Shown here piece by piece: positions 1,861 to 21,441 of a stretch of 21,743 nucleotides of DNA (positions within the stretch are counted from its first letter, which is position 1; the number at the start of each line of letters is the position of its first letter). The notes under the pieces are model-generated. The model worked only from the letters and a program-made list of their open reading frames with translations, searched no databases and had not been told where the DNA came from. The stretch comes from Bacteroidota bacterium. GTDB lineage: Bacteria > Spirochaetota > Spirochaetia > JABMQR01. The translations under genes were made by a program, and so were the position numbers. Location: NCBI GenBank assembly GCA_013202335.1, contig JABMQR010000076.1:1-21743 (forward strand). Reading direction: 5' to 3'.

Positions 1861-1889
1861 TTGACAAATCGATTTTTGTGATTTAGTAT
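1861..1889 (+). promoter_or_regulatory. Sigma-70 type promoter of the lacI-type gene
   Basis: TTGACA (1861-1866), 17-base spacer, TAGTAT (1884-1889). The boxes and spacing are close to consensus. The spacer begins with the perfect 10-bp palindrome AAATCGATTT (1866-1875), which shares the ATCGATTT part of the main operator arm and could be an auxiliary site. Confidence 0.75.
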
Positions 1890-1924
1890 CTATGTAAACC
1901 GATTGCGCAATCGATTTACATAGA
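1889..1924. promoter_or_regulatory. 36-bp palindromic operator (LacI type)
   Basis: Inverted repeat centred between 1906 and 1907 with core CGATTGCGCAATCG and outer arms TCTATGTAAA / TTTACATAGA. One base pair of the 18 is mismatched. The central CpG and symmetry are typical of LacI/GalR-family operators. It begins at the last base of the -10 box and covers the expected transcription start, a position suited to repression. The adjacent regulator gene at 1942 is the obvious ligand, implying autorepression and possibly control of the whole downstream operon. Confidence 0.75.
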
Positions 1925-1941
1925 AAAGATGAGGATTATTA

Positions 1942-2949
1942 GTGAAAGTAACCATGGCTGATGTAGCGCAAGCTGCCGGAGTCTCTAAAACCACCGTATC
2001 ACATGTTATTAACAGATCCCGGGCAGTCTCTGCAGAAGCTCAGGCACGGGTGCAGAAAGCCATTCGTGATCTGGATTATAAAGTGAACACTATAGCCAGA
2101 AATCTGCGAAGCGGAAATTCGCATCTTATTGGATTTGTTGTTACAAACCTCACAAACTATTTCTATATTAACGTAGCCTCAGGATTAAACTCCGTATTGA
2201 AGCCCAAAGGGTATAAATTGTTCTACGTAAACTCATTTGAAGATGCTGAAATTGAACAGCAAAATATTGAAGATATGGTCTATCATTCAGTAGATGGACT
2301 GGTTATAGCCCCCACTGCAAATAATTGTAAATACATGGAAGAGATAATTCCTGTCGGTCTGCCTACCCTGTTCATTGATAGAAAACCCAGAGAGTTTACG
2401 CGTGATACCGTACTTCCTACTAATTTCCAGGGAGTCTATGAAGCGGTTGCCCATCTCATTAAAAAAGGCCATACACGCATTGGATTCATCGGATCACGTA
2501 ATAATGACACCATGAACGAACGACATGAAGGATTCCTTCGGGCTCTCTCTGACGGCGGCATCACCCATCATCCTGAACTTGATTTAATCGGTGAAATCCC
2601 ACCGGCTCCCATGCATGATCTATTGGAAGGTTACCTCTATAACATCATGGAATCCTATCTGAAAAACAGACCAACTGCACTCATGATAGGAAACGGACTT
2701 GCTGCAATTGGGGTCTTTAATTATCTGCAGAAACATACTATCCGGATTCCGGAAGAGATGGCGCTTGTTGCATTTGACGACTCTTTCTGGTATTCGACCG
2801 CGACACCGGCAATCTCGGCAGTTAAACAGGATCCTTTTGAAATAGGGGTACAGGCCGGGAAAATTTTGCTGAAACGGCTGGATAAAGATGACTCTCCATT
2901 TGAAGATATTCGTATCCCCACTGAGTTCATACAACGGGGGTCATGCTGA
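1942..2949 (+). CDS. LacI/GalR-family transcriptional regulator (module 1)
   Basis: DNA-binding repressor of 335 aa. The N-terminal helix-turn-helix (about residues 5-25, ADVAQAAGVSKTTVSHVIN) and hinge helix (ARNLRSG, about 52-58) lead into a periplasmic-binding-protein-like effector domain, with typical stretches HLIGFVVTNLTN, GLVIAP, GHTRIGFIG and ALVAFDD. The GTG start is preferred over the ATG at 1954 because GAGG (1931-1934) lies 7 bases before it. It carries its own promoter and palindrome immediately upstream. The ABC importer follows 98 bp downstream and the sulfatase is divergent, so its inducer is probably a sugar or sugar derivative handled by these genes. Confidence 0.95.
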   Translation: MKVTMADVAQAAGVSKTTVSHVINRSRAVSAEAQARVQKAIRDLDYKVNTIARNLRSGNSHLIGFVVTNLTNYFYINVASGLNSVLKPKGYKLFYVNSFEDAEIEQQNIEDMVYHSVDGLVIAPTANNCKYMEEIIPVGLPTLFIDRKPREFTRDTVLPTNFQGVYEAVAHLIKKGHTRIGFIGSRNNDTMNERHEGFLRALSDGGITHHPELDLIGEIPPAPMHDLLEGYLYNIMESYLKNRPTALMIGNGLAAIGVFNYLQKHTIRIPEEMALVAFDDSFWYSTATPAISAVKQDPFEIGVQAGKILLKRLDKDDSPFEDIRIPTEFIQRGSC

Positions 2950-8430: not shown

Positions 8431-9618
8431 TTACTTTTTCAAAGTTATCAGATTAGCAAGAAATATAATAAGAAGTAAAATATATACTCCTATTATTGAA
8501 AAGTAATGTGTAATGTCGAATGCTGTTATCAATAACGATGTACACAAGGGGCCAGTAAAGGCACCTATACTGGCAGTACTAACCAAATACATAATATAGT
8601 GAGGTTTAGAGAACTCATGGCGACAACTAGCGAGAAGCATGGGCCATAAAGGACCGCAACTCAAACCAATACCAAAAACACACAGAATAGAGAGGACTTC
8701 TGATTGAATGATATTCATAGAAAATGCGAGCAGCAGGGCAATTAGTCCATGGATGAGCATACTTTTCTTAAGAGATTTGGTTTTTGCAAATGCATAGTAT
8801 AAACGGCCTAGAGCTACCCCCAACCAGAAAAAAGTGAGAATTAGCGCAGAACTTCCCAAACTGATCTGCTTGCCTTTTTCAAAAAAGAGAGGAATCCAGC
8901 TGGCAAGACTGCTCTCTGCAACCACAAACATGAACATAGCTAATAGATACCAGATAAATTTTCCTCTGGGACTGTCTGATACATTCTGCATCGTTGTTTG
9001 GCTAACATTTACTTCTGCTGTTTTTTTTGTATCTTTCTCTCCGGTATTAGTATAAATCAGAATAAAAACTGCAACGGCAATCAGAGCAATGAAAACAGCC
9101 AGGATAATTCCCAAATATGAAATTGAGAAATTCCAGGTGAAAAGCAATGCTGTGATGGCCGGACTCAGCATTGCCCCAATACAGTAGAAGAATTGTGAAA
9201 GATTGAGAAATCTACTAGAGTTGTACTTCTCATATGCCGAAATCATTGTAGAGCTTACAGATTCCAGAATACCACCACTGCCGCCAACAATTACCAGTAA
9301 CATAATTAAACCGAAAAAAGAGTTGATATAACCCAAAAAACAAAGTGCTGCAGCTGCAGCCAGTAATGATATGACGATACTTGATTCATGAGTTTTTCTT
9401 CCTTTTTGGATCAAGAATCCATAGATGAGAGAGAAGATGAAAAATGATACATACTGCAGCGAGAATGCAAAACCCAAATGATTTACCGATATATTAAATT
9501 CCTGTATCAGACTGGTAACAAGAGCTGGAAGAACATTAATACTGATAGCAAAACCTGTAAGACTTAGAATCAGCCCATATAATTTCCCTACAGTTCTTAC
9601 ATTTCTCACTTTTCTCAC
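8431..9618 (-). CDS. Major facilitator superfamily transporter
   Basis: Integral membrane protein of 395 aa with about 12 hydrophobic helices split by a polar linker (about 192-215, TNTGEKDTKKTAEVNVSQTT), the normal MFS architecture. Loop 2-3 has FLIQKGRKTHESS, a diverged form of the MFS motif A. The GTG start is supported by GAGG (9627-9630 on +) 8 bases upstream. It follows the UroD-like gene at 9654 by 35 bp on the minus strand, with no promoter seen between, so both are expressed from the operator-controlled promoter near 10950. A secondary importer or exporter for the same compound class is likely; substrate cannot be predicted. Confidence 0.9.
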   Translation of the reverse strand: MRKVRNVRTVGKLYGLILSLTGFAISINVLPALVTSLIQEFNISVNHLGFAFSLQYVSFFIFSLIYGFLIQKGRKTHESSIVISLLAAAAALCFLGYINSFFGLIMLLVIVGGSGGILESVSSTMISAYEKYNSSRFLNLSQFFYCIGAMLSPAITALLFTWNFSISYLGIILAVFIALIAVAVFILIYTNTGEKDTKKTAEVNVSQTTMQNVSDSPRGKFIWYLLAMFMFVVAESSLASWIPLFFEKGKQISLGSSALILTFFWLGVALGRLYYAFAKTKSLKKSMLIHGLIALLLAFSMNIIQSEVLSILCVFGIGLSCGPLWPMLLASCRHEFSKPHYIMYLVSTASIGAFTGPLCTSLLITAFDITHYFSIIGVYILLLIIFLANLITLKK

Positions 9619-9653: not shown

Positions 9654-10904
9654 TTATAAATTTCCGATGCTATCTATTAATTTGTTTAACTTCTTTCTGT
9701 AATACCTGAAATCTTCCCACGAAACATGCGGCGGGACAGAATGATCAAGAAAAGGAATATAGTTTCCTGTTTCCAGAAGCTTTTCTGTAACTTCAAGAAT
9801 CTCATCAATACGTTTTTTACCCTTTGCAACTTCCATCTTGGGAATTCCACCCATCATGGAAAGATCTGGATATTTTTTTCTAATCTGTAAAAGGTCCATA
9901 CCAGTCTCAGTTTCCATAGGATATAAACCTGTTATACCACCTTCAATAAACAGAGGAATAAGCTGCTCACAGTTGCCGTCAGTATCAAGGAGTATTATAT
10001 TGACACCTCGGCTTTTGAGAAAAGAGGTAATTCGCTTATAGTAGGGGAGCATGAACTCTCTTATAATTGCCGGGGAAACCATTGATCCCAGGCCGCTGGA
10101 CATATCTTCAAAGATATGCAGTACATCAAAAGATGTTTGCCCCAATATTTCCTCCCATAGAGCAATCCAGAGATCCGTAAAAGTGCTGTTTATATCATGA
10201 ATCAACTCAGGATCATCATAATAGTTGAGGAATAGATTCTCATATCCCATTAAATGAGCCTGCAGACCAAATAATCCACAGGGGTATCCACCTGCAGCAA
10301 GTGGATAACTTCTTTTTTGATGGATTTCTGCTTTTTGGTGCCAGTTTTCGGGCAATCGGCTTGTGATAGTATCCTGACGCACGCGTTCGCTCTTTATCTG
10401 ATCCCAATCTTTTTTGTTTTGGATTGGCCATTGAGTAGGGCTTGGAACGACCGACTCTTTCTGCAAAAACTTTCTCGTAACCCCATCCATGTCTTTATAG
10501 ATAATATATCCATCTCCTTCTGCTAGTATCTCAGGTTCATAGCGGGGGTAGAAGACATGTTCTGCATCTATAAGTCTTACCGATTCATCAAATCCAAAAT
10601 AATCATGCACATCTGTATCAATGGGAAATCCTTGAGTCGGCCAGTAGGTGGCATCTCCCCACACAGCTAAACCTTCCGGGAGATGATTGCTCTGGTTTAA
10701 TGACGATGGATGGTTCCATGCAAATGAGTAGAGAGATGCAGTGATCGTGGTAGAATCTGCTGGGATGGTCGGAGGGTTTTTTTTGGGTAATCCCTCACGA
10801 TACCATCTGTTTAGAGTGCCGCCCCAATAGGCATATTCCCATTTGGGGGACCTTGCTCCTGGACTTCTGCCCATAACCTGTAGAAATCTCTGCTGAGAAG
10901 TCAT
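9654..10904 (-). CDS. UroD/MtaA-fold family protein lacking HxC metal motif
   Basis: Protein of 416 aa from the ATG at 10904. That start is preferred over one at 10967 because AAGGAG lies 6 bases before it, and because the upstream start would put the operator and promoter inside the gene. The fold is recognised from MTSQQRFLQVMGR, HIFEDMSSGLGSMVSP (about 263-278), MLPYYKRI and the late MMGGIPK strand. At the place of the zinc-binding HxC seen in methyltransferase relatives it reads LLDTDGN (Asp307-Thr-Asp309), so the metal site is changed or lost. It differs strongly from the UroD-like protein at 6309, so the two are not recent duplicates. It is first gene of a two-gene minus operon with the MFS transporter. 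Its reaction is unknown. Confidence 0.82.
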   Translation of the reverse strand: MTSQQRFLQVMGRSPGARSPKWEYAYWGGTLNRWYREGLPKKNPPTIPADSTTITASLYSFAWNHPSSLNQSNHLPEGLAVWGDATYWPTQGFPIDTDVHDYFGFDESVRLIDAEHVFYPRYEPEILAEGDGYIIYKDMDGVTRKFLQKESVVPSPTQWPIQNKKDWDQIKSERVRQDTITSRLPENWHQKAEIHQKRSYPLAAGGYPCGLFGLQAHLMGYENLFLNYYDDPELIHDINSTFTDLWIALWEEILGQTSFDVLHIFEDMSSGLGSMVSPAIIREFMLPYYKRITSFLKSRGVNIILLDTDGNCEQLIPLFIEGGITGLYPMETETGMDLLQIRKKYPDLSMMGGIPKMEVAKGKKRIDEILEVTEKLLETGNYIPFLDHSVPPHVSWEDFRYYRKKLNKLIDSIGNL

Positions 10905-10920
10905 CGCTTTCTCCTTGTTG

Positions 10921-10936
10921 GGTTTTACGTCAAACC
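10921..10936. promoter_or_regulatory. Operator A of the module 2 regulon
   Basis: GGTTTTACGTCAAACC is a 16-bp palindrome with one mismatched pair and central ACGT. It starts two bases beyond the -10 box of the minus promoter and covers the likely start of transcription of the UroD/MFS operon. The same sequence recurs at 11099, 13295 and 13378. Confidence 0.8.
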
Positions 10937-10938
10937 TC

Positions 10939-10967
10939 AAGATAACACACGCTATGCTGCCTGTCAA
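10939..10967 (-). promoter_or_regulatory. Promoter of the UroD-like/MFS operon
   Basis: On the minus strand TTGACA (10967-10962), 17-base spacer, TATCTT (10944-10939). It has a consensus -35 and ideal spacing, and operator A lies immediately downstream. Confidence 0.75.
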
Positions 10968-11059
10968 TAATGTCTTTTATTTGGAGCAGCAGCACCAGTA
11001 AATTCCTGGGCAGCTCTGCTGTATTGTTCTATTTAAAAGGGAGCTACGTTAATAAAATA

Positions 11060-11089
11060 TTGACATCTGCCAGCTGATGGGAGTATTCT
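11060..11089 (+). promoter_or_regulatory. Promoter of the phosphotriesterase-family gene
   Basis: TTGACA (11060-11065), 18-base spacer, TATTCT (11084-11089). Operator B follows 9 bases later over the expected transcription start, the same layout as operator A. Confidence 0.7.
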
Positions 11090-11098
11090 ATGTATCTA

Positions 11099-11114
11099 AG
11101 TTTTACGTCAAACT
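11099..11114. promoter_or_regulatory. Operator B of the module 2 regulon
   Basis: AGTTTTACGTCAAACT has the same central ten bases as operator A (TTTACGTCAA) and the same single mismatch pair. It lies between the promoter and the ribosome site (AAAGGAG, 11118-11124) of the gene at 11131. Centre-to-centre distance to operator A is 178 bp. Confidence 0.8.
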
Positions 11115-11130
11115 ACAAAAGGAGTGACCT

Positions 11131-12171
11131 ATGTCAATTAAAACTATTACTGGGCCAATTGATGAAAAAGAAGCAGGTTTTATTGCACCTCATGAACATA
11201 TATTTATCGATATCTCTCACCAGTTTATTACTCCTGATGCAATTTCAAAGCGTCGGCTTGCAAAGGAGAAGGTTTCAATTTCAAATCTTGATGTTCTCTC
11301 AAGAAATCCATTTTTGGTTATAGATAACCTTATCCTGGATGATGAAGAGACAGCTATTGATGAAGTACTGCGATTTAAAAATGCAGGGGGAGGAACCCTG
11401 ACTGATGTTACTCCAAGCGGCATCGGTAGAGATCCTGAAGCACTTCACCGGGTGAGTGTTCGAACCGGAATTCATGTTGTTGCCGGGTGCGGATACTATA
11501 CTGGTGATACACATCCTGATGCCCTTTCAGAAATGTCGATCAACGATCTTGCCGATAGTTTTCTCACTGATATTGAAGTAGGTATTGAGGGAACCAGGTT
11601 TAAAGCAGGGGTTATTGGTGAAATTGGTACGAGTAAGGTTGTTAGTAAAAAGGAGAAAAAGGTTGTTGCTGCAGCTGCTGTAGCGCAGAAAAAGTCAGGA
11701 CTCGGAGTCCATATCCACACCTATCCATGGGGTAATCGGGGATTGGAAGTAATTGAGCTGATGAAAAAGCATGGCTGTGATATCGGTAAAGTGGTTATCG
11801 ATCATATTGATGTAGAGTTTGACATGGACTACTGCCGATCACTCATGAACGCAGGAGCCTTTATAGAGTTTGATGACTTTAGCAAGGAGTTCTATATTGA
11901 TTCATTTGAACGAAAACAGTTTGCCGGAGGCATTTTTGTCACTGATTATGAACGGGTTCTCGCTCTCAAACAGTTCGTTGATGATGGATATACAGATCAT
12001 ATCCTCATTACCTGTGACATCTGCCTGAAAACTCTTATTCACCGCTATGGAGGGTGGGGCTATGATCACATCCTTGCACATATAATTCCTATGATGCGTG
12101 AGGTAGGGGTAAAAGAGAAGGATATTGAGACCATAGTCTATAGAAATCCGGTACGGTTGCTTGGGGTTTAG
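11131..12171 (+). CDS. Phosphotriesterase-family metal-dependent hydrolase (Php-like)
   Basis: Amidohydrolase-superfamily TIM-barrel protein, 346 aa, cytoplasmic (no signal peptide). Metal ligands are visible in order: His21-x-His23 (APHEHIF), Glu164 in GVIGEIGTS at the place of the bridging residue, His196 (VHIHTY), His225 (VIDHID) and Asp296 (ITCDIC). In true phosphotriesterase the bridge is a carboxylated Lys; Glu places this protein with the E. coli Php / lactonase-like branch, so hydrolysis of a lactone or sugar-acid ester is more likely than of a phosphotriester. It forms a single-gene unit under operator B, divergent from the UroD-like operon and convergent with the regulator 39 bp downstream. 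A sugar oxidised by a dehydrogenase to a lactone would be a sensible substrate, but that is inference. Confidence 0.9.
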   Translation: MSIKTITGPIDEKEAGFIAPHEHIFIDISHQFITPDAISKRRLAKEKVSISNLDVLSRNPFLVIDNLILDDEETAIDEVLRFKNAGGGTLTDVTPSGIGRDPEALHRVSVRTGIHVVAGCGYYTGDTHPDALSEMSINDLADSFLTDIEVGIEGTRFKAGVIGEIGTSKVVSKKEKKVVAAAAVAQKKSGLGVHIHTYPWGNRGLEVIELMKKHGCDIGKVVIDHIDVEFDMDYCRSLMNAGAFIEFDDFSKEFYIDSFERKQFAGGIFVTDYERVLALKQFVDDGYTDHILITCDICLKTLIHRYGGWGYDHILAHIIPMMREVGVKEKDIETIVYRNPVRLLGV

Positions 12172-12210
12172 AATTCAGAGTTATTTTTATATCATCTATG
12201 AAAACAGTAT

Positions 12211-13245
12211 TTACTGCCGGAAAAGAGTAGTACTGCTGCGTTCAATCAGCCTTGGTTTAACTATCTTTTTCAACTCTCCCTTTACCTTTCCATCGATCTG
12301 ATCAATAAGGTAGTTTGTTGCCTTTTCAGCGATCTCATCATAATCGATATAGATAGAACTTAAGGAAATCATAGCTAAATCAGATACATCATTATTATCA
12401 ACTCCAATAATTGCATAATCCCTGCCTGGAATAATCCCTGCTAGATTTGATTCATGCATGAATCCCATGGCACATAAATCATTCATACAGAAAATACCAT
12501 CATACTGAATACCTGATTTTTCCAGCTCTTTATAGGCCTGCTTCCCAGAATCGATTGTTAAACCGGCTTTAATGACGATACAATTTTTTGCGGGAAATTG
12601 TTGTTCTTCCAGATAGAGATTAAAACCCCGTTCCATCTGTCTTATCGAGCTGAAATCGCCAAGATCATTCCATGCATTAACCACCGCAATATGCTTACAG
12701 CCAGTAGTACATAGATGCTGTGCTGCAAGGTAACCAGTATTGTATCCATCGTTAAGTATATAGGATCCGGAATAAAAGGTAGGAATAGTATCTACAGCGA
12801 CGTGGGGAAGCCCTGACTGCTGCACAAGATGATAGGTATTTTCGTTTTTTTCTGAGAAGCAGAGAATAATTCCCTCAATACGGCTCTGAATCATCTTACT
12901 AACAACTTTGCTGGCTCGATCAGGATCCCATTGACTCTCTGAAAAGATGACCTCAAACCCACGGTTAGAAGCAACCAGCTCTGACCTACGAATCATGGAT
13001 CCGTAAAATGGATTGGTGATATCGTTGATCAGGAATCCGATTGTTTTTGTTCTGCCGGATCTGAGACCCCGAGCTGCAGCATTGGGGCTGTAGTTTATTT
13101 CTGCAGCAATTGCAAGAACTTTACTGCGTGTTATCTCACTGATCCGTGATTCTGGTTGAAACGAGAGCGATACTGTTGTCTCTGATACCCCCGCCAGAAG
13201 AGCAATGTCTTTAATAGTAGATTTCTGTTTTTTTATATTTTTCAT
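12211..13245 (-). CDS. LacI/GalR-family transcriptional regulator (module 2)
   Basis: Repressor of 344 aa. Helix-turn-helix at about 10-30 (IKDIALLAGVSETTVSLSF); the VSLSFQ end of the recognition helix differs from the common VSRVLN. The hinge AARGLRSGRTKTIGFLIND is followed by the effector domain (FEVIFSESQWD, GIILCF, GIFCMNDLCAMG, AIIGVDNND). There is no C-terminal leucine-heptad tetramerisation tail like that of E. coli LacI. AAGGA lies ahead of the ATG. Operator C lies 50 bases upstream, suggesting autoregulation. Matching sites in front of three other units make it the most economical candidate for their regulator. Its recognition helix differs from the module 1 regulator, in line with their unrelated operators. 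Confidence 0.95.
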   Translation of the reverse strand: MKNIKKQKSTIKDIALLAGVSETTVSLSFQPESRISEITRSKVLAIAAEINYSPNAAARGLRSGRTKTIGFLINDITNPFYGSMIRRSELVASNRGFEVIFSESQWDPDRASKVVSKMIQSRIEGIILCFSEKNENTYHLVQQSGLPHVAVDTIPTFYSGSYILNDGYNTGYLAAQHLCTTGCKHIAVVNAWNDLGDFSSIRQMERGFNLYLEEQQFPAKNCIVIKAGLTIDSGKQAYKELEKSGIQYDGIFCMNDLCAMGFMHESNLAGIIPGRDYAIIGVDNNDVSDLAMISLSSIYIDYDEIAEKATNYLIDQIDGKVKGELKKIVKPRLIERSSTTLFRQ

Positions 13246-13294
13246 TTTTATATTTTTCCTTGACTTATGCTAAATCAGCTTCTATAATCAATTT

Positions 13295-13310
13295 AGTATG
13301 ACGTCAAACC
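13295..13310. promoter_or_regulatory. Operator C of the module 2 regulon
   Basis: AGTATGACGTCAAACC has a perfect TGACGTCA core and conserved AAACC right arm, with two mismatched pairs in the left arm. It is the most diverged of the four sites. On the minus strand it contains a TTGACG box that could be the -35 element of the regulator gene, so binding would block its own promoter. I could not assign a matching -10 box with confidence. Confidence 0.65.
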
Positions 13311-13375
13311 TAATGGTTAATACTACAAACATTATATAAAAAATGCAAGTAGTAACGTTTTATTTTTTTTGGCAT

Positions 13376-13395
13376 AAGGTTTGACGTAAAACCTT
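13376..13395. promoter_or_regulatory. Operator D of the module 2 regulon
   Basis: The GGTTTGACGTAAAACC core (13378-13393) has AAG/CTT extensions making a 20-bp palindrome with one mismatched pair. It is the longest symmetric version of the four. It ends 42 bases before the first gene of the eight-gene operon and lies 83 bp centre to centre from operator C. I could not place a promoter for this operon with confidence. Confidence 0.78.
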
Positions 13396-13437
13396 CTTTG
13401 AGTTGGTTGGCCGATAACAGTATAAAAAGGGGAGTAT

Positions 13438-14604
13438 ATGAGAATAGAGAAAGCAGAATTTGTTGAACGAATTCATAAACTTCAAGACTATATGAGAGAA
13501 CACCAGATAGATGCCGTTGCCGTTTATGGAGATGAATACCGGAAGGAAAACCTGCGCTATGTATCAAACTTCTGGCCCATATTTGAGCGTGGTATGTGCT
13601 TCATTCCAAAGCAGGGAGAACCTGTTCTTGCAGGTGCTCCGGAAGGGGAGAGCTATGCCCGGGAGATGAGCGTATGGGATGATATACGAAATGTAAAAGA
13701 TTTTGCCTGTGTAACGGTTCCTGATCAAATAGTATATCCGCTGGCCTCTTTCTCAAGTTTTACTGAAATACTTTCTGAAGTACTAAAAGGAGGGAAACGT
13801 TTAGGATTGGCAGGTTATTGGGATATACCGGCTCCAATTATGGAGAGAATACAGGGAGCTGTCGATAATCTTGAAATAGTACAGGTGGATAATCTTCTGG
13901 AAAAGATGCGAATTATAAAGAGCCCGGCAGAAATAGCGTGCCTGAAAGAGTGTGGGAGAATTGCAGGGCTTGCCTATCAGGAAATTATTAAAAATGCAGT
14001 TCCCGGTAATACTGAACGTGAAGCAGCGGCGGCGGGGGAGTGGATAGCCAGGAAAGAGGGTGCTGAAGCGATAAATTTTCATGTCTTTGGAAGCGGCAAA
14101 CGAACTCATACCATAATTGGGCGGGCAACAGAAAAAATCATTAAAGAAGGCGACATGGTCATGTCCGCCTTAGCAGTCCAGTACGAAGGTTATGTTACAA
14201 CCGTAGAGTACCCTTTTGTAGCCGGAACTATGTCTGATGAGCAGAAAAAGATACTCTCAATTCTAGCTGAAGCTGCAAACGTGCAGCAGCAGTATCTGAG
14301 AGCCGGAACGGTTACAGGAGAAATGGTACGGGCAGTGCAGTCAGTCTATCAAAAAAGAGGATTCGCCGAGTTCGATGTTTATCCCCCAATGCATGGAATA
14401 GGACTTGCTGAAGCTGAATCTCCCTATCCTGACGAATCATCTGAATACCAATTTCAGGCTGGAATGTGTGTCAATTCAGATATCAGCCTTTTTGGACACG
14501 CAGGTGGATCAAACAGAATTGAAGAGGGGTTTGTCATTCAGGATGACGGCTGTGAATCTCTTACCCCTATTATCCGAAAATTACTGGAAAAATTATCTTT
14601 ATAG
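13438..14604 (+). CDS. M24-fold hydrolase, creatinase-like, metal Asp ligands absent
   Basis: A 388-aa pita-bread-fold protein with an N-terminal creatinase domain (about 1-150) and C-terminal M24 domain (about 160-388). In M24 aminopeptidases and prolidases the five metal ligands are Asp, Asp, His, Glu, Glu. Here the first two are Ala244 (GDMVMSA) and Thr255 (GYVTT), the His is kept (His319, MHGIG), the first Glu is Asp348 and the last Glu is kept (Glu362). A dinuclear metal centre is therefore unlikely. His224 (SGKRTH) and Glu257 (TTVEY) fit the places of creatinase His232 and Glu262, as I recall that sequence, so a metal-free C-N hydrolase is the best reading. The substrate need not be creatine. 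AAGGGGAG precedes the ATG. First gene of the operator D operon; its stop overlaps the next gene's ribosome site. Confidence 0.85.
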   Translation: MRIEKAEFVERIHKLQDYMREHQIDAVAVYGDEYRKENLRYVSNFWPIFERGMCFIPKQGEPVLAGAPEGESYAREMSVWDDIRNVKDFACVTVPDQIVYPLASFSSFTEILSEVLKGGKRLGLAGYWDIPAPIMERIQGAVDNLEIVQVDNLLEKMRIIKSPAEIACLKECGRIAGLAYQEIIKNAVPGNTEREAAAAGEWIARKEGAEAINFHVFGSGKRTHTIIGRATEKIIKEGDMVMSALAVQYEGYVTTVEYPFVAGTMSDEQKKILSILAEAANVQQQYLRAGTVTGEMVRAVQSVYQKRGFAEFDVYPPMHGIGLAEAESPYPDESSEYQFQAGMCVNSDISLFGHAGGSNRIEEGFVIQDDGCESLTPIIRKLLEKLSL

Positions 14605-14615
14605 GAGGAATACTG

Positions 14616-14984
14616 ATGAAAGGCGGGGCAAAGACATGGTATTTCCCTGATGGATATCTCCCGGAAAAGAATATAGAGGGATCACTCGAATCTCATGAAG
14701 CATTGATGATTCTAAATGCAGGAACATCCAATGCCTACATCGACATAACTATCTATTTTGAAGATAAAGACCCCATAAAGGGAATTGAGACCCTTGTTTT
14801 AGGCGAACGGGTGAAAACCCTGCGGCTTGATCATAAAGAGGATATGGGAGGGGTGATTATACCTATCCTGACTCAATATTCTCTTCGGATAGAATCTGAT
14901 GTTGAAGTTGTCGTACAGTTTGGAAGGCTGGATGCAACTCAGACTAACCTGGCGTATTATGGAACCATGGGGTTCCGTGAGTAA
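14616..14984 (+). CDS. Anabaena sensory rhodopsin transducer (ASRT)-family protein
   Basis: A small all-beta protein of 122 aa that aligns along almost its whole length with the Anabaena sensory rhodopsin transducer: GYLPE near 13-17, SHEALMILNAG at 26-36, DITIYFEDKDP at 43-53, VVVQFGRLDATQ at 98-109, and a final AYYGTMGF. No rhodopsin gene is in the window. It is cytoplasmic, without signal peptide or membrane segment. Family members outside cyanobacteria occur with carbohydrate genes, and the domain has been proposed to bind small molecules. Here it lies between an M24 gene (11 bp gap) and a binding-protein gene (40 bp gap), so it may sense or hold the pathway substrate. The AGGAGG site overlaps the stop codon of the gene before it. 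Fold assignment is firm; role is not. Confidence 0.88.
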   Translation: MKGGAKTWYFPDGYLPEKNIEGSLESHEALMILNAGTSNAYIDITIYFEDKDPIKGIETLVLGERVKTLRLDHKEDMGGVIIPILTQYSLRIESDVEVVVQFGRLDATQTNLAYYGTMGFRE

Positions 14985-14986
14985 TA

Positions 14987-15004
14987 TTTGGCAAATGAGC
15001 CAAA
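14987..15004 (+). repeat. Small stem-loop before second binding-protein gene
   Basis: TTTGGC / GCCAAA with a six-base loop, ending 6 bases before the AGGAGG of the gene at 15025. Only six base pairs, so of doubtful weight; it could tune expression between the ASRT-like and binding-protein genes. Confidence 0.3.
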
Positions 15005-15024
15005 AATAATAGGAGGATCTATTT

Positions 15025-16326
15025 ATGTGCAAAAAAGGAATCGTACTGGTATTATTCTTGCTAATGTCAACGGCATTAGTTTTCGCAGGTGCAGAGGCAG
15101 AAGGCGCCGAAGCAGCGGATAGCGGTGAACCATTGGAGTTTTATGGATGGGACTTTATGCCTGATCAGATTAAAGCCTATAACAATGATTTCAGCGTTGA
15201 GAATGATGAAGAGGTCAATGTTCATATCATTCCGAATATTGGATATGTACCCGGACTTCAGACAAAGATGATGGGCGGCGTCCGAATGGATGTTATGTAC
15301 AATTTTCGCTGGAACCAACTGAGATTCTACAACGTTGGATGGGCAAAAGGCCTGTCGGATTTTGACGGCGCTGATGAAGTGCTGAATGATATTGTTGAGA
15401 GTGCAAGACCTGCCTATCAGTCACCTGATGGAGAACTAATTTCTCTTCCCTATTTCTCGGCACCCTTCATTTTGATGTTCAATCCCAGTCTGCTGAAATC
15501 TGTAGGATATGACAATTTTCCTGCAACCAAGCAGGAAATGTATGAGATGTGTGTAAAACTAAAAGCTAATGGTGTGGACAGTCCTTATGTAGCCTATTGG
15601 AACAAAGACTTTATCGACCGATACTTTTTCATCTATCTGATCTCTGAAGGCATTAAAGTATTTGATGACAATTTTAATCCAACATTCCAGAATGATCCGG
15701 CAACCAAAGAAGTTTTTACCTGGTGGGTTAAAATGTATCAGGAAGGGTTAACTACTCCGACTATTCTTACTGATGGACCAAGTGAAGGAGCAATCTCTAT
15801 TCAGGAAGGCCGATCAGCATTCTTTAATCTTCACCACTATTTTCTGAAAGGAATTCAGGAATCAGATGCACCAGAGGGTAAAAATGTTGTTGTTGGACCG
15901 CAAATTCCCGGAAAAACCGGTACAACACTGCACATTGGTGAAGTACTGCAGATGGGAGGAACTACTCCTGATCCGGAAAGAGCCTGGGAACTGCTGAAAT
16001 TTTACAGCTGGAAGAATGCAGAAGGTGATTACCATGTTCCAAGAACCTGGGCACTGGAAGCTGGTCTTCTTGTTCCCTACAAAGGATTCTTTGAGATTAA
16101 GGAAATTCAGGATAGCTTTAAATCATGGATCGATTGGGATCAGCTGATTGAAATTATCGAAGACAAGTCAAAGATCGAACCTGTCAGAATGCAGATATGG
16201 TATCCTGACTGGAGAACTGAATCAGCAAATATTCTCCATAATATGCTTTTGGATAATATTTCTGTAGACGATGCTATAGCAGAAATTGCTGACCTTGCTA
16301 AGAAAAACAAGTCAGAAGCCGAATAA
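15025..16326 (+). CDS. ABC sugar-importer substrate-binding protein (family 1), module 2
   Basis: Extracytoplasmic solute-binding protein, 433 aa. A signal peptide of about 22 residues ends in ALVFA before GAEAEGAEA, a mature N-terminus seen in many spirochaetal sugar-binding proteins. The only early Cys is residue 2, so it is not an obvious lipoprotein. Features include MMGGVRMDVMYNFRW, SLPYFSAPFILMFNPSLLKSVG and EGRSAFFNLHHYFLKG, where the usual GPW ligand segment is not conserved. This differs clearly from the module 1 binding protein, so the ligand is likely different. AGGAGG (15011-15016) supports the start. A GC-rich hairpin and two permease genes follow. Confidence 0.92.
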   Translation: MCKKGIVLVLFLLMSTALVFAGAEAEGAEAADSGEPLEFYGWDFMPDQIKAYNNDFSVENDEEVNVHIIPNIGYVPGLQTKMMGGVRMDVMYNFRWNQLRFYNVGWAKGLSDFDGADEVLNDIVESARPAYQSPDGELISLPYFSAPFILMFNPSLLKSVGYDNFPATKQEMYEMCVKLKANGVDSPYVAYWNKDFIDRYFFIYLISEGIKVFDDNFNPTFQNDPATKEVFTWWVKMYQEGLTTPTILTDGPSEGAISIQEGRSAFFNLHHYFLKGIQESDAPEGKNVVVGPQIPGKTGTTLHIGEVLQMGGTTPDPERAWELLKFYSWKNAEGDYHVPRTWALEAGLLVPYKGFFEIKEIQDSFKSWIDWDQLIEIIEDKSKIEPVRMQIWYPDWRTESANILHNMLLDNISVDDAIAEIADLAKKNKSEAE

Positions 16327-16338
16327 GATTATGTCCCG

Positions 16339-16358
16339 GGGCGGGAGAAATCCCGCCC
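16339..16358 (+). repeat. GC-rich stem-loop behind second binding-protein gene
   Basis: Perfect 8-bp stem GGGCGGGA / TCCCGCCC closed by a GAAA tetraloop of the stable GNRA class, 12 bases after the stop codon. No U-run follows, so it is likely an mRNA-stabilising or partial attenuator hairpin that sets binding-protein and permease levels apart, parallel to 4343-4390. Confidence 0.75.
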
Positions 16359-16384
16359 AATAATATATCAGCAAAGGACCATCA

Positions 16385-17287
16385 ATGATACGTAAAAAAT
16401 ATGATATATTGCCGTCAGATTATCGGGTATCGATCTATTTTGTCATACCTGCAATTATTTCTGTTCTTGCATTTCTTCTCTTCCCGTTTATATATACGGT
16501 GATTCTGAGCTTAAGTAAGTTTAATTTAATGGATCAAAGCCTAACATTCAGGGGGTTGGATAATTATATTTCAATATTTTCATCCAAGCCTTTTATTCAC
16601 TCTATCAGTATAACCGTTCTTTTTGCGCTCTATGTTTTAATCTGCTCTAGCGTGCTGGGAGTGTTGTTTGCACTCCTTCTTAATCAGGATTTTATCGGGA
16701 GAGGATTTGCGCGGGCAATACTGATTATTCCCTGGGCTATTCCCTGGGTAGTAATAGGAATTATGTGGAAATGGATGCTGAATGCACAATTTGGTTTGCT
16801 TAATGGCTTGCTCTTCCAGCTCGGACTGATCAAAGAGTATATCCCGTTTCTGGCCCTGGAGAAGTGGGTTCTCTTTATATCGGCATTGCCTGCTGTATGG
16901 AGACAAGCGTCCTTTTCAGGCATTCTGCTTTTAGCATCAATTCAAACCATCCCCAATGCACTTTATGAATCAGCAATGATTGACGGAGCCGGTACACTTC
17001 GGAAATTCTTCTCAATCACACTTCCCTGGATGATGCCGACGCTTATAGTTGTATTCATGTTCAATACTCTGTATGGATTTATGCAGTTTGATACGGTATT
17101 CATGCTTACAAAAGGTGGACCAGGGGATGCAACTGAAGTAATCGCAATAAATATGTATAGAAAAGCTTTTGAATCGTTGAAACTGGGTGAAGGTGCTGCC
17201 ATCGGATATGTACTCTCTATGCTCTGTCTTGCTTTCGGGCTCGTCTTCACACGTATTTTACGAAAAGTAGAAGATATAACAAAATAG
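16385..17287 (+). CDS. ABC sugar-importer permease, MalF/UgpA-like
   Basis: Inner-membrane subunit of 300 aa with about six helices (first at about 16-43; others around 74-99, 110-131, 158-185, 212-235 and 268-291). FRGLDNYISIF near 55-65 and LLIIPWAIPWVVIGIMWKW-type residues at 112-130 are family signatures. The ATPase-docking EAA loop is at about 194-218, reading YESAMIDGAG...WMMP, with the usual EAA weakened to ESA. AAGGA lies ahead of the ATG. It pairs with the permease 10 bp downstream. As in module 1, no ATPase gene is present. Confidence 0.95.
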   Translation: MIRKKYDILPSDYRVSIYFVIPAIISVLAFLLFPFIYTVILSLSKFNLMDQSLTFRGLDNYISIFSSKPFIHSISITVLFALYVLICSSVLGVLFALLLNQDFIGRGFARAILIIPWAIPWVVIGIMWKWMLNAQFGLLNGLLFQLGLIKEYIPFLALEKWVLFISALPAVWRQASFSGILLLASIQTIPNALYESAMIDGAGTLRKFFSITLPWMMPTLIVVFMFNTLYGFMQFDTVFMLTKGGPGDATEVIAINMYRKAFESLKLGEGAAIGYVLSMLCLAFGLVFTRILRKVEDITK

Positions 17288-17297
17288 GAAAAATGAG

Positions 17298-18176
17298 ATG
17301 TTAAGAAAGAAATCAATTGTGGGAAAAGTGCTGCTCTACTTAGCGTTTGCTCTATTTATCTTCTGGATTGTATTCCCCTTCCTGTGGGTTATCATATCAA
17401 GCTTTATGACCATCAGCGAGCTGGGAGCAGTTCCACCTCACTGGATACCGGAACGGCCTACGCTGGCAAACTATAAGAGTGTTCTTCTTGGTGTGTACGA
17501 AGGGAAAAATACCTATGGAACCTATGGTTCCGGGCAAAAGGCAGAGACCATTCTGCCTGCTTTAAGGAACAGTTTTTTAATAGCTGTCATTGTCTCTTTT
17601 TTCAATATTCTAATTGGCGGACTGGCTGCTTATTCAATTTCCCGATTTAAGACACGGCTGAATCACACCCTTTTCTATACATTGATAACTTCCAGAGTTT
17701 TGCCTCCGATAGGAATGATCATACCATTTTTTATCATTTTTAGATTTTTAAAAGTAATCAATACACCATTGGTGCTCATACTCTCCTATAACCTGCTGGT
17801 TTTACCTATGACCATATGGCTGTTGAAAGGATATTTTGACAATGTTCCGGCAGACCTGGAAGAGATGGCAATGGTGGAAGGGTGTACCCGTTTCAGATCA
17901 TTGTTTCTTATCGTTATACCTGTGGCAATACCCGGGTTTATCGCTGTATTCATTATGTCGATGATGGAATGCTGGAGTGAGTTCTTCTTTGCTCTGGTAA
18001 TGACCGATCAGTTAACATTACCCCCTGTTCTCATAGGATTTGAGAAAATGGAACAGATTCAATGGAATGTTATGGCAGCTGCTACCGTAATAACCGTTAT
18101 CCCGCCGGTAATTGTAGCACTGTTTATGCAGAAATATATTATCAAAGGGCTTACAGCTGGAGCTGTCAAGGGATAA
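17298..18176 (+). CDS. ABC sugar-importer permease, MalG/UgpE-like
   Basis: Second membrane subunit, 292 aa, six predicted helices, with the first at about 10-35. MalG-type marks are FPFLWVIISSFM, LANYKSVL, AAYSISRF (about 110-117), WLLKGYFDNVP and an EAA loop at about 188-213 (LEEMAMVEGCT...AIPG), in which EAA is changed to EMA. The C-terminus QKYIIKGLTAGAVKG nearly repeats that of the module 1 partner. The segment YEGKNTYGTYGSGQKAET (about 67-84) is an extra periplasmic loop compared with the module 1 permease. It lies 10 bp behind the first permease and 43 bp ahead of the next M24 gene. Confidence 0.95.
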   Translation: MLRKKSIVGKVLLYLAFALFIFWIVFPFLWVIISSFMTISELGAVPPHWIPERPTLANYKSVLLGVYEGKNTYGTYGSGQKAETILPALRNSFLIAVIVSFFNILIGGLAAYSISRFKTRLNHTLFYTLITSRVLPPIGMIIPFFIIFRFLKVINTPLVLILSYNLLVLPMTIWLLKGYFDNVPADLEEMAMVEGCTRFRSLFLIVIPVAIPGFIAVFIMSMMECWSEFFFALVMTDQLTLPPVLIGFEKMEQIQWNVMAAATVITVIPPVIVALFMQKYIIKGLTAGAVKG

Positions 18177-18219: not shown

Positions 18220-19395
18220 ATGAGATGCGAACCACTTCCCAAAGCGGAATATATGCGCAGAATTCGAAAAGTGCAGGAAGAGATAAGAAAGCAGGGAATA
18301 GATGTACTTATTACCTATAGTAATGAAACAGAATCGGCTTCAAGCCGGTATTTAACAGGATTTTGGCCTTTTTTTGATTTTGTGGGAATAGTTATTCCAG
18401 CCAATGGGGAAGCAGCACTGGTAACCGGCGGTCCCGAATCGTATGAATTTGCACTTCGATTTTCGGCAATCGAAAACATTCTTATCAACCCGCTTTATGT
18501 AGAATCGTCTGCACCGGATTGGGTACCGGAAGTAGAAGGGGAGAGCTTTGCAACGCTTCTTCCCCGTATATGCGGATCCGTTCCGAATGTTGTAGGATTG
18601 AGTGATTGGAATATTTTTCCTCATCTGTTGTTTGAAGATATTAAAGAGGGTGCTCCTGATGCAGATATCATTCCGGCGGATGACTTACTCATGAATATCA
18701 AAGCAATTAAAGAGGATGTAGAAATTCCTTATATTGAAGAGGCTTTTCGCATTACTGAACAGGCAATGTCTGCAGCTCTGGATGCATGCCGACCTGGAAT
18801 ACGCGAATATGAACTTGAATCAATTGCCCGGCAGAAAATGCTGGAATTAGGATCTGAAGGTATGCCTTATCCTGCCTGGGTATGTTCCGGTCCCAATACT
18901 CCATTAAGTCTGTGTCGATCCACCAGCAGAATGATAGAATCCGGTGATCTGGTTCAGTTTACCATGGGTTCAAAATTTATGGGATACTGCGGCAACATGT
19001 GCAGACCGGTATTCCTTGGGTCAGTTCCTTCACAGGCAGGCAGGCTCATGGATGCAGCAATCGAGGCTACCGAGTATGTAATGAAATTTCTTAAACCGGG
19101 GATTGTCGCTTCTGATGTTTTTTCAGGATATTATGACATTCTGGCAACCTATGGTTTTGAAAACTTCACACTCTATGGTCCAGCTCATGGAACCGGTCAT
19201 GCAGAAGTTGAGGGTCTTTGGCTCTCAAAGGATGCAGATTTTATCATTCAACCCAATATGCTCTTCAATGTTGATATCTGGCTGACCGATGGAACCTATG
19301 GAATGAGATACGAAGAGGGTGTGCTGATAACTAAAACCGGATTGAAACAACTGAATAACTCCAGAAGAAATAATCGTACTCTATCAATCAGTTAA
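18220..19395 (+). CDS. M24-fold protein, second copy, metal ligands and active His replaced
   Basis: A 391-aa creatinase/prolidase-fold protein with an N-terminal domain to about residue 155 and an M24 domain after it. Metal-ligand places read Thr248 (GDLVQFT), Asn259 (GYCGN), His323 (PAHGTG), Asp352 (NVDIW) and Glu365 (MRYEE); both aspartates are gone. The His that follows SG in aminopeptidase P and creatinase is replaced (SGPNTP, Pro228), and the creatinase-like Glu seen in the copy at 13438 is absent. It is therefore either an enzyme with altered chemistry or a non-catalytic partner. GAGGAG precedes the ATG by 9 bases. It lies 23 bp ahead of the third copy and is divergent in sequence from both others, so the duplication is old. 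Confidence 0.85.
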   Translation: MRCEPLPKAEYMRRIRKVQEEIRKQGIDVLITYSNETESASSRYLTGFWPFFDFVGIVIPANGEAALVTGGPESYEFALRFSAIENILINPLYVESSAPDWVPEVEGESFATLLPRICGSVPNVVGLSDWNIFPHLLFEDIKEGAPDADIIPADDLLMNIKAIKEDVEIPYIEEAFRITEQAMSAALDACRPGIREYELESIARQKMLELGSEGMPYPAWVCSGPNTPLSLCRSTSRMIESGDLVQFTMGSKFMGYCGNMCRPVFLGSVPSQAGRLMDAAIEATEYVMKFLKPGIVASDVFSGYYDILATYGFENFTLYGPAHGTGHAEVEGLWLSKDADFIIQPNMLFNVDIWLTDGTYGMRYEEGVLITKTGLKQLNNSRRNNRTLSIS

Positions 19396-19418: not shown

Positions 19419-20570
19419 ATGCTTACACAAGATGATTATAGGCAAAGAATAGAAGCAATGCGTTCAGCGTGTGAAATGAAAGATCTTGATGCCGTTCTCA
19501 TATTTGCCAATGAGAATGAACCGGCCAATGTACGCTATTTTACCAATTATAGACCAGTCTTTGAGACAACAGCACTCATTATTCCAAAGAGCGGGGAGGC
19601 TGTACTGCTAATTGGTCCGGAAACAGAAGCTCTTGCGAAAGATCACTCCGTGTTAACGAATTTTAAAATGCTGCAGCCATTTAGGGAGACCTCTGACCCT
19701 GAATATCCGGATATTCAATTGGATACCTTTCCTGAAATATTTTCTGAGCTGAATAATGGGCGCGGAATAAAAAAACTTGGACTGATTGGAACAAATCTTA
19801 TGACCGTTCAGGTATACGAGAAAATTCAGGAAGCACTCCCTGATGCAGTAATGACCAAAGAAGATTTTCTGCTGCGAAAAATGCGTATGATTAAATCTGA
19901 AAAAGAACTGATTCTGCTAAAAAAAGCTGCAATCAGTGCAGGTGAGGGATTTAAGTTTGCACTTAATCGGATACATCCCGGTATGACAGAGTTAGAAGCT
20001 ACCGCAGAGTGTCTTTATGGTGCCTATAAGAATGGAGCAGAAGGAACAGGATTTCAAATCTGGTGTGTGTCAGGAAAAGCAACAAATCAGGCAATCGGAA
20101 TTTCTACACCAAGAATCATCGGTAGAGAGGAGGTCGTTCAGATCTCTATGGGTGTACAGATTGAGGGATATGTTTCCAGTTTCGGCAGAGCTTTTGTTTT
20201 TGGAAATATATCTGATGATATCAAAAAAATGTTTGAGGTGAATCTTGCATCAAATGCTCTAACGCATGAGCTTATCAAACCGGGAGCTGCAGCTGCTGAT
20301 ATTGCAAAAAAGGTTCATGGCTATATCAGGAAAGAGGGGTTCGGTGACTGTCTAGTCTATGGTCCAGCGCATGGAATCGGTATGATGGAATGTGAATATC
20401 CCTTTATAGAAACCACCTCAGATTTTATATTGAGCGAAGGAATGACCTTTGCGGTAGATTCCTATCTTTCAGGCTCAAGTTTTGGAATGCGCTTCGAAGA
20501 CACTGTTGCGGTCACATCTCGTGGAGAAGAGCAGTTTTGTGATTACAGGCGGGAAATAATCAATCTATGA
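19419..20570 (+). CDS. M24-fold protein, third copy, metal ligands and active His replaced
   Basis: A 383-aa protein of the same two-domain creatinase/prolidase fold. Ligand places read Ser243 (VVQIS), Ser254 (GYVSS), His318 (PAHGIG), Asp347 (FAVDS) and Glu360 (MRFED). As in the other two copies both metal aspartates are missing and the first Glu is Asp. After SG the usual His is Asn223 (SGKATN). The N-terminal stretch ANVRYFTNYRPVFETTALIIP matches the first copy (ENLRYVSNFWPIFERGMCFIP) well. GAAGGGG lies before the ATG. It is followed after 10 bp by the epimerase gene. Hydrolysis of a C-N bond, or a partner role with another copy, are the options; neither can be decided from sequence. Confidence 0.85.
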   Translation: MLTQDDYRQRIEAMRSACEMKDLDAVLIFANENEPANVRYFTNYRPVFETTALIIPKSGEAVLLIGPETEALAKDHSVLTNFKMLQPFRETSDPEYPDIQLDTFPEIFSELNNGRGIKKLGLIGTNLMTVQVYEKIQEALPDAVMTKEDFLLRKMRMIKSEKELILLKKAAISAGEGFKFALNRIHPGMTELEATAECLYGAYKNGAEGTGFQIWCVSGKATNQAIGISTPRIIGREEVVQISMGVQIEGYVSSFGRAFVFGNISDDIKKMFEVNLASNALTHELIKPGAAAADIAKKVHGYIRKEGFGDCLVYGPAHGIGMMECEYPFIETTSDFILSEGMTFAVDSYLSGSSFGMRFEDTVAVTSRGEEQFCDYRREIINL

Positions 20571-20580
20571 GAAGGATAGG

Positions 20581-21441
20581 ATGAATAAGATAGGAATCCA
20601 TTATGGTAGTTTTGTTTCAACATGGAGCGAAGATCAATTTCCTTTAATTAAACGGGCCAAGTCTATAGGATTTGATTTGCTTGAATTTGGTGTTCCTTTT
20701 CTCTTGGAAATGGGTGATTACCAATTACAGCAATTTAAAGATGAAGCACAAGAAAATGATCTCTTATTAGTATTAAGTTTGGGTCTGAACCCTGAGCAGG
20801 ATATTGGTTCTCCCAATAGTGAAATACGTAATGCTGGTATGAAAGTGATGAAAGATACTATCAAGGCCATGATAAAAATCGGTGCAGTTGATTGTTCCGG
20901 GATAGTGTATGGCAGTTGGAATGGCAAGATTTCAAGGTATGAAGATAAGGCTATATATTGGAAAAATAGTGTGGCATCTATGAAGGAGATTGCAAAAATC
21001 CTGACGGATGAAGGAGTCTACTTCAATCTGGAGGTGGTTAATCGCTTTGAGAACTTCCTCCTTAACACCTGTGGGGAGGCATTGAAATACATTGAAGAAG
21101 TAGGTTCTTCTCATATTGGTGTTCATCTGGATACCTTCCATATGAATATTGAAGAAGATTCAATGGTGGCTCCAATCATTCGTGCAGGAGATAAACTCAG
21201 ATACTTTCATGTGGGGGAGAACAACAGAAAGTTCCCAGGATTAGGGAATCTCTCTTGGAAAACGATCTTTGATTCCCTGAAGGCTATCAATTATTTTGGA
21301 CCCATAACCATGGAACCTTTTGTGAAACCAGGTAGTGAGGTAGGGTCTGCTGTTAGCCTTTTCCGTAATCTTATGGATACCAGTGATTATGAGAATGATA
21401 TGAGGCAGTCTCTGAGTTTTGTCAGACATATGTTGTTATAG
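20581..21441 (+). CDS. Ketose 3-epimerase (D-tagatose/D-psicose 3-epimerase family)
   Basis: Cytoplasmic TIM-barrel isomerase of 286 aa that interconverts ketohexoses at carbon 3. The four metal ligands of the D-psicose 3-epimerase family are present: Glu151 (LEVVNRFEN), Asp184 (HLDTFHMNIEED), His210 (YFHVGENNR) and Glu245 (MEPFVKPG). Each is offset by one from the Agrobacterium enzyme (Glu152, Asp185, His211, Glu246), as I remember it. The N-terminus MNKIGIHYGSFVSTWSE also fits. Exact ketose preference cannot be told. AAGGA lies shortly before the ATG, 10 bp after the third M24 gene, so it is the last gene of the eight-gene operon. It is the clearest sign that the pathway ends in a free ketose or close relative. 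Confidence 0.92.
   Translation: MNKIGIHYGSFVSTWSEDQFPLIKRAKSIGFDLLEFGVPFLLEMGDYQLQQFKDEAQENDLLLVLSLGLNPEQDIGSPNSEIRNAGMKVMKDTIKAMIKIGAVDCSGIVYGSWNGKISRYEDKAIYWKNSVASMKEIAKILTDEGVYFNLEVVNRFENFLLNTCGEALKYIEEVGSSHIGVHLDTFHMNIEEDSMVAPIIRAGDKLRYFHVGENNRKFPGLGNLSWKTIFDSLKAINYFGPITMEPFVKPGSEVGSAVSLFRNLMDTSDYENDMRQSLSFVRHMLL

Follow-up and report, generated by a model that had tools for sequence, protein, structure and literature searches.

Four palindromic sites very probably form one sugar-type gene switch of a LacI-family regulator and recur beside related regulators in distant bacteria

The stretch of DNA analyzed here, a window of 21,743 nucleotides (contig JABMQR010000076.1), very probably holds one sugar-type gene switch, in which four palindromes stand at the promoters of about 12 genes and recur beside the regulators of distant bacteria. 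From the sequence evidence set out below, we hold with high confidence that the four palindromes are the operators of the LacI-family repressor encoded at 12211-13245, which would control four units and be released by a small molecule. The features are collected in Table 1. The gene identities proposed in an earlier note on this DNA were borne out by Pfam, NCBIfam and our own gene list, and its figure of at least 12 genes, which is based on operon continuity, is a fair count because the gaps inside the units are 10-58 bp. The eight-gene operon runs in the order M24a, ASRT, ABC importer (three genes), M24b, M24c and TIM-barrel protein.

Table 1. Predicted operators and genes of the four units in the window.
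Feature	Coordinates	Strand	Location or basis	Promoter-like sequence
Operator 1 (predicted)	10921..10936		16 nt before likely ATG 10904 (minus strand), UroD-like/MFS unit	2 nt behind TTGACA-17-TATCTT, minus strand
Operator 2 (predicted)	11099..11114		Precedes phosphotriesterase-like gene	9 nt behind TTGACA-18-TATTCT
Operator 3 (predicted)	13295..13310		Between regulator and eight-gene operon; 49 nt before regulator ATG	6 nt behind TTGACT-17-TATAAT pointing to operon
Operator 4 (predicted)	13378..13393		83 bp from operator 3; 44 nt before first operon gene	7/12 promoter-like sequence before it
MFS transporter	8431..9618	-	35 bp behind UroD-like gene	
UroD-like protein (PF01208; weak MtaA/CmuA relative)	9654..10904	-	Start chosen	
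Phosphotriesterase-family protein (PF02126)	11131..12171	+	Pfam	
LacI-family regulator, VSL clade	12211..13245	-	Pfam LacI and Peripla_BP_3	
M24 protein a, both Asp columns replaced	13438..14604	+		
ASRT-family protein (PF07100)	14616..14984	+		
ABC importer substrate-binding protein	15025..16326	+		
ABC importer permease 1	16385..17287	+	Named from sequence and 78% identical G001 match	
ABC importer permease 2	17298..18176	+	Named from sequence and 81% identical G001 match	
M24 protein b	18220..19395	+		
M24 protein c	19419..20570	+		
Xylose-isomerase-like TIM barrel, D-psicose 3-epimerase type	20581..21441	+	298.6 bits, cut-off 300	

A scan of the whole window for GGTTTKACGTMAAACC with up to three mismatches returned five places, compared with a mean of 0.22 in shuffled sequence, and none of 100 shuffles reached five. 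This pattern scan confirmed the positions of the four 16-mers described earlier, at 10921, 11099, 13295 and 13378, which have 0, 2, 2 and 0 mismatches, respectively. The earlier note reported noticing no further copy; a weak place with three mismatches lies at 17798. We rejected this fifth place as a site on the grounds of its three mismatches, its location in coding sequence (a permease gene) and its matrix score of 11.7, against 22.3-24.6 for the four palindromes. All four lie in the noncoding part of the window, which makes up 8.6% of its length in our gene list. The palindromes are imperfect, with 7, 7, 6 and 7 of 8 pairs matched in the order given above, and each is even with a central CG, as are all 29 sites of the collection described below, those from relatives having been selected by likeness. 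A perfect 16-bp palindrome, GAATATCCGGATATTC, was also observed inside the M24c gene at 19701-19716 and is likely due to chance.

Two of the sites had been placed at promoters in the earlier note; we instead observed three (10921, 11099 and 13295) directly behind promoter-like sequences. These sequences match at 10/12 (minus strand), 10/12 and 11/12 (plus strand) positions, respectively, and are the best of 13 promoter-like places in 10700-13700, a region for which shuffles average 8.6 places. The proposed assignment of one site to each unit is uncertain in how 13295 and 13378 are divided. The strong promoter before 13295 faces the eight-gene operon, suggesting that this site probably serves the operon, either in addition to the regulator or in its place. 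The best promoter seen for the regulator itself has 7/12 matches, and the sequence does not settle whether 13295 or 13378 serves it. In the Spirochaetes metagenome-assembled genome G001, whose regulator is 61% identical to that of the window, the best promoter at the regulator's site faces away from the regulator.

Promoter geometry was then assessed over 29 collected sites, namely, the four of the window and 25 of 72 places with up to two mismatches in relatives; we excluded 47 places that are not near a regulator but retained C63 of G250, as it adjoins a UroD-like gene, and two sites of G985, as they are exact. As the search selected for the site letters, keeping 25 of 72 places, they look conserved partly for that reason. 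A promoter-like sequence of at least 10/12 matches, with the site -6 to 15 nt behind it, was found at 15 of the 29 sites, compared with 0.84 expected for random positions within 400 bp and 0.96, 0.58 and 0.3 expected under systematic shifts of 25-100, 25-150 and 25-400 bp, respectively. Lowering the threshold to at least 9/12 or at least 8/12 gave 18 and 22 sites (1.2-2.2 and 3.7-6.4 expected from the shift controls), and at 7 of the 29 no promoter-like sequence of at least eight matches was found. The location of sites directly behind promoter-like sequences suggests repression, and it points to the geometry of a repressor covering the transcription start.

In the mechanism that we propose, a dimer of the regulator would bind each site and bend the DNA at the central CG. 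With three of the sites 2-9 nt behind the -10 box, the bound repressor would block initiation at all four units, the regulator's own gene among them. Release would be brought about by a small molecule, probably sugar related, that is either taken up through the ABC importer of the operon or derived from a compound so imported. It is highly improbable that the regulator activates instead of repressing, or does both: near-whole-turn spacing in four of six site pairs would suit co-operation, but 22 of the 29 sites lie behind a promoter-like sequence of at least eight matches at a position where binding hinders RNA polymerase. The six listed pairs, with 178, 83, 53 and 31 bp near whole helical turns and 45 and 204 bp not, are too few for a claim of helical phasing.

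The repressor proposed here combines a LacI helix-turn-helix (PF00356, 55.8 bits) with a periplasmic-binding-like domain (PF13377, 80.1 bits), and its recognition helix reads ETTVSL; the operators have T at position 6. Among the best 120 of 212 hits of a protein search, the first 73 were set apart (E values of 3e-52 or better, then 6e-40), and in those with intact starts the helix reads VSL, then S, A, C or T, then F or L. A quick tree of 141 rows, from which three hits under 310 residues were left out, separated the clade (87 rows) from the remaining 54 rows at a single branch with a support of 100. An earlier tree of 138 rows, to which a long-branch warning applies and which was built without four of the regulators, agrees. 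Since VSL also occurs in 8 of the 54 nonclade rows, leucine alone is no marker of the clade. Related regulators were present in 2/296, 8/387, 6/194, 1/3, 3/394 and 10/197 genomes of overlapping draws. Searching plasmid DNA with positions 10500-16500 of the window gave no match, and a plasmid protein search gave 4242 records with general LacI matches, all below 60% identity (three listed at about 33%).

We searched the loci of 16 clade regulators from 14 genomes, 35-61% identical to the window's regulator, and 10 less related LacI loci with a matrix built only from the four sites of the window. In 13 of the 16 clade loci, the top-ranked position fell no more than 200 bp upstream of the regulator (scores of 16.0-24.6), a few of these positions overlapping the extrapolated regulator start; the ranking for G001a was confined to the half of the contig that carries the regulator. 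In contrast, none of the 10 control loci had such a position ranked first (scores of 0.9-8.5; the best, L008, came second, P = 0.02). The motif is thus present beside most of the related regulators, where the earlier note had proposed to look for it. The three misses have explanations found after the fact: in G797b the regulator ends a tight gene run headed by a site (score 16.7), in G250 it ends a run that is headed by an exact site (score 24.6) and interrupted once, by about 0.7 kb, and in G003 the 69 bp of upstream DNA contain one weak site (score 9.4), with two good sites behind the gene. In G001, sites on the regulator's contig precede the orthologues of the phosphotriesterase gene (65%) and the M24a operon (70%) as well as the regulator. 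The phosphotriesterase orthologue has a site and a promoter in the position corresponding to operator 2 (L022:2502), and the run behind the M24a site reads M24-ASRT-ABC-M24. A second clade member of G001 has two palindromes between the regulator and an M24-ASRT run.

In PurR and RbsR, His at residue 20 of the regulator goes with G at operator position 6. A second LacI protein of the window (1942-2949, helix TVSH) carries this His and has a palindrome of its own, CCGATTGCGCAATCGA, at 1899-1914, with G at position 6 and 9 nt behind TTGACA-17-TAGTAT (window 1861-1914). It is even less probable than activation that the four palindromes belong to another regulator, such as this protein, whose gene is 8-10 kb away from them, or a global one: their occurrence across genomes follows the clade to which the 12211-13245 regulator belongs (13/16 versus 0/10), and the four palindromes have T, not G, at position 6. 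The second LacI protein probably controls a separate unit reaching to 8392 (ABC importer, UroD-like and SDR genes).

Random scatter of the motif, which the earlier note had named as a refuting result, was examined in genome-wide scans of relatives (14 genomes with a clade regulator, 62 Mb). With up to one mismatch to RGTTTGACGTCAAACY, a pattern fixed after five of these relatives had been looked at, there were 13 places in 11 of the 14 genomes, compared with about 2.6 expected by chance at uniform composition. All 13 lie in a regulator locus or its gene run or adjoin a phosphotriesterase-, M24- or ASRT-type gene. With up to two mismatches there were 72 places, against 69 for a control pattern, so these weaker matches are background and mean nothing by themselves. 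Within 98 genomes of the class of G001, seven had a place with up to one mismatch, namely, G001 and 6 of the other 97, and none of these six had an intact ACGT core; a reversed control pattern gave 19 places in the same genomes. In G985, two further exact sites lie outside the regulator's contig, one 41 nt before an ASRT gene and one before an 822-residue gene that is followed by an M24a orthologue (63%). The 822-residue protein behind the exact operator (L060 2610-5078) has no Pfam match at E 0.001. The one-mismatch places at related loci, together with the matrix test (13/16 versus 0/10), support the LacI-type regulon proposed in the earlier note. That the palindromes are chance occurrences or a functionless repeat element is next to impossible: only four copies occur in the window, but no shuffle reached the count, the motif marks orthologous but not control loci, and the sites are conserved at orthologous promoters in G001.

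An M24 gene was found in the fetched DNA of 14 of 17 regulators, the window included, several contigs being short (none in that of G250, G490 and G003), and an ASRT gene accompanies 10 of the 17, in one case on another contig and in one in two pieces. No M24 or ASRT match was found at the 10 control LacI loci. In all 18 aligned M24 sequences, three of them from the window, both Asp columns of the paired metal ligands, set by alignment, are replaced (G797a has an Asp one column over), and the His is kept in all 17 sequences covering its column. These proteins thus lack the paired Asp ligands of M24 metallopeptidases; a replaced Asp pair with a kept His is as in creatinase-like, metal-free M24 members. 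An amidohydrolase occurs in 8 of 16 relatives (profile-scanned in three), G250 has rhamnose-mutarotase and weak sugar-isomerase matches, and G797b has an MttB-type methyltransferase. Gene content varies within the clade and does not settle the substrate. In the predicted regulon, which spans Spirochaetes and Lentisphaerae, M24 proteins lacking the usual Asp pair are linked with ASRT proteins and, in part, with amidohydrolase or UroD-like genes. As a tentative and rather doubtful extension, the clade may control an undescribed pathway of these two groups. Creatinase-like M24 proteins without metal, an enzyme of the amidohydrolase superfamily and partly a UroD-like protein would then act on a nitrogen-bearing sugar compound; ASRT would sense the same ligand as a second sensor, in the cytosol, and would tune either the importer or the repressor.

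Several further observations were made at these loci. The window's operon encodes three M24 proteins, all without the paired Asp. MttB-type and pterin-binding proteins (L062 4067-5569 and 9786-10568) lie close to a clade regulator that is accompanied by M24 and ABC genes and hint at methylated-amine substrates in one branch. In G001, a glycyl-radical enzyme (L001 4091-6334) is encoded in an ABC/UroD/SDR cluster divergent from the regulator, a radical-SAM gene (L022 9775-10722) lies upstream of the M24a gene, and the ASRT orthologue (L022 8106-8419) matches in two pieces, indicating an indel or a frame break. Behind the ASRT gene of another locus (L045 10195-11949) are two tandem similar 274-residue proteins, the first without a Pfam match.

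ASRT proteins have been proposed as sugar sensors of operons (PMC2739507), and the window resembles the neighborhoods described there in that a solo ASRT gene stands among genes of sugar transport and metabolism. In contrast to that study, the main text of which has no words starting with M24 or LacI, ASRT here falls in one operator-defined regulon. No literature match for ASRT with LacI, M24, creatinase or Spirochaetes contained "rhodopsin transducer." Shared operators, including one directly before an ASRT gene off the regulator's contig, make the sugar-sensor idea testable, and the regulon bears on the role of ASRT proteins outside rhodopsin signaling. The ASRT and UroD-like genes and the M24 genes lacking the Asp pair, all poorly understood, become one operator-defined unit that can be traced in other genomes. 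Among the literature matches listed, the 12-base consensus core did not occur and no title was on a LacI operator, and a search for comparative genomics of LacI operators or regulons in Spirochaetes found none, both searches covering literature outside subscription journals and RegPrecise.

The regulator is neither RbsR nor MalI by NCBIfam: RbsR (NF047341) is its best match at 185.1 bits, far below the cut-off of 382, and it scores 103.2 bits against the MalI cut-off of 310. With the helix ETTVSL and operators that have T rather than G at position 6, it also falls outside the TVSR subgroup of Camas et al. (2010, PMC2978694), which comprises 1490 of 2639 LacI domains and whose recognition code, as given there, does not cover the arginine-less case. 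Loss of this Arg with a G-to-T change at operator position 6 is described in PMC2329647, with MalI of Escherichia coli as the tested case. The regulator and its operators share with MalI and other arginine-less LacI proteins of that study Leu or Gln in place of the helix Arg and T at position 6, but the other operator letters differ from those of MalI, for which the available text of a reporter study (PMC5543585) yielded no operator sequence. The pairing of Leu at residue 20 with an operator T at position 6 agrees with this published rule, of which the clade would be a many-genome case. Most LacI operators are even palindromes that have a central CG and lie near the gene (PMC4052901). The present regulon resembles the local LacI/GalR regulons described there in its 16-bp even palindrome with a central CG, its site near the regulator and its sugar-type ABC importer, whereas the clade, operator and gene set of the window were not found in the accessible text of that study, which does not mention Spirochaetes. 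Set against these studies, the regulon fits known frames, and the parts that appear to be new are the clade itself, its operator and the set of genes that recurs.
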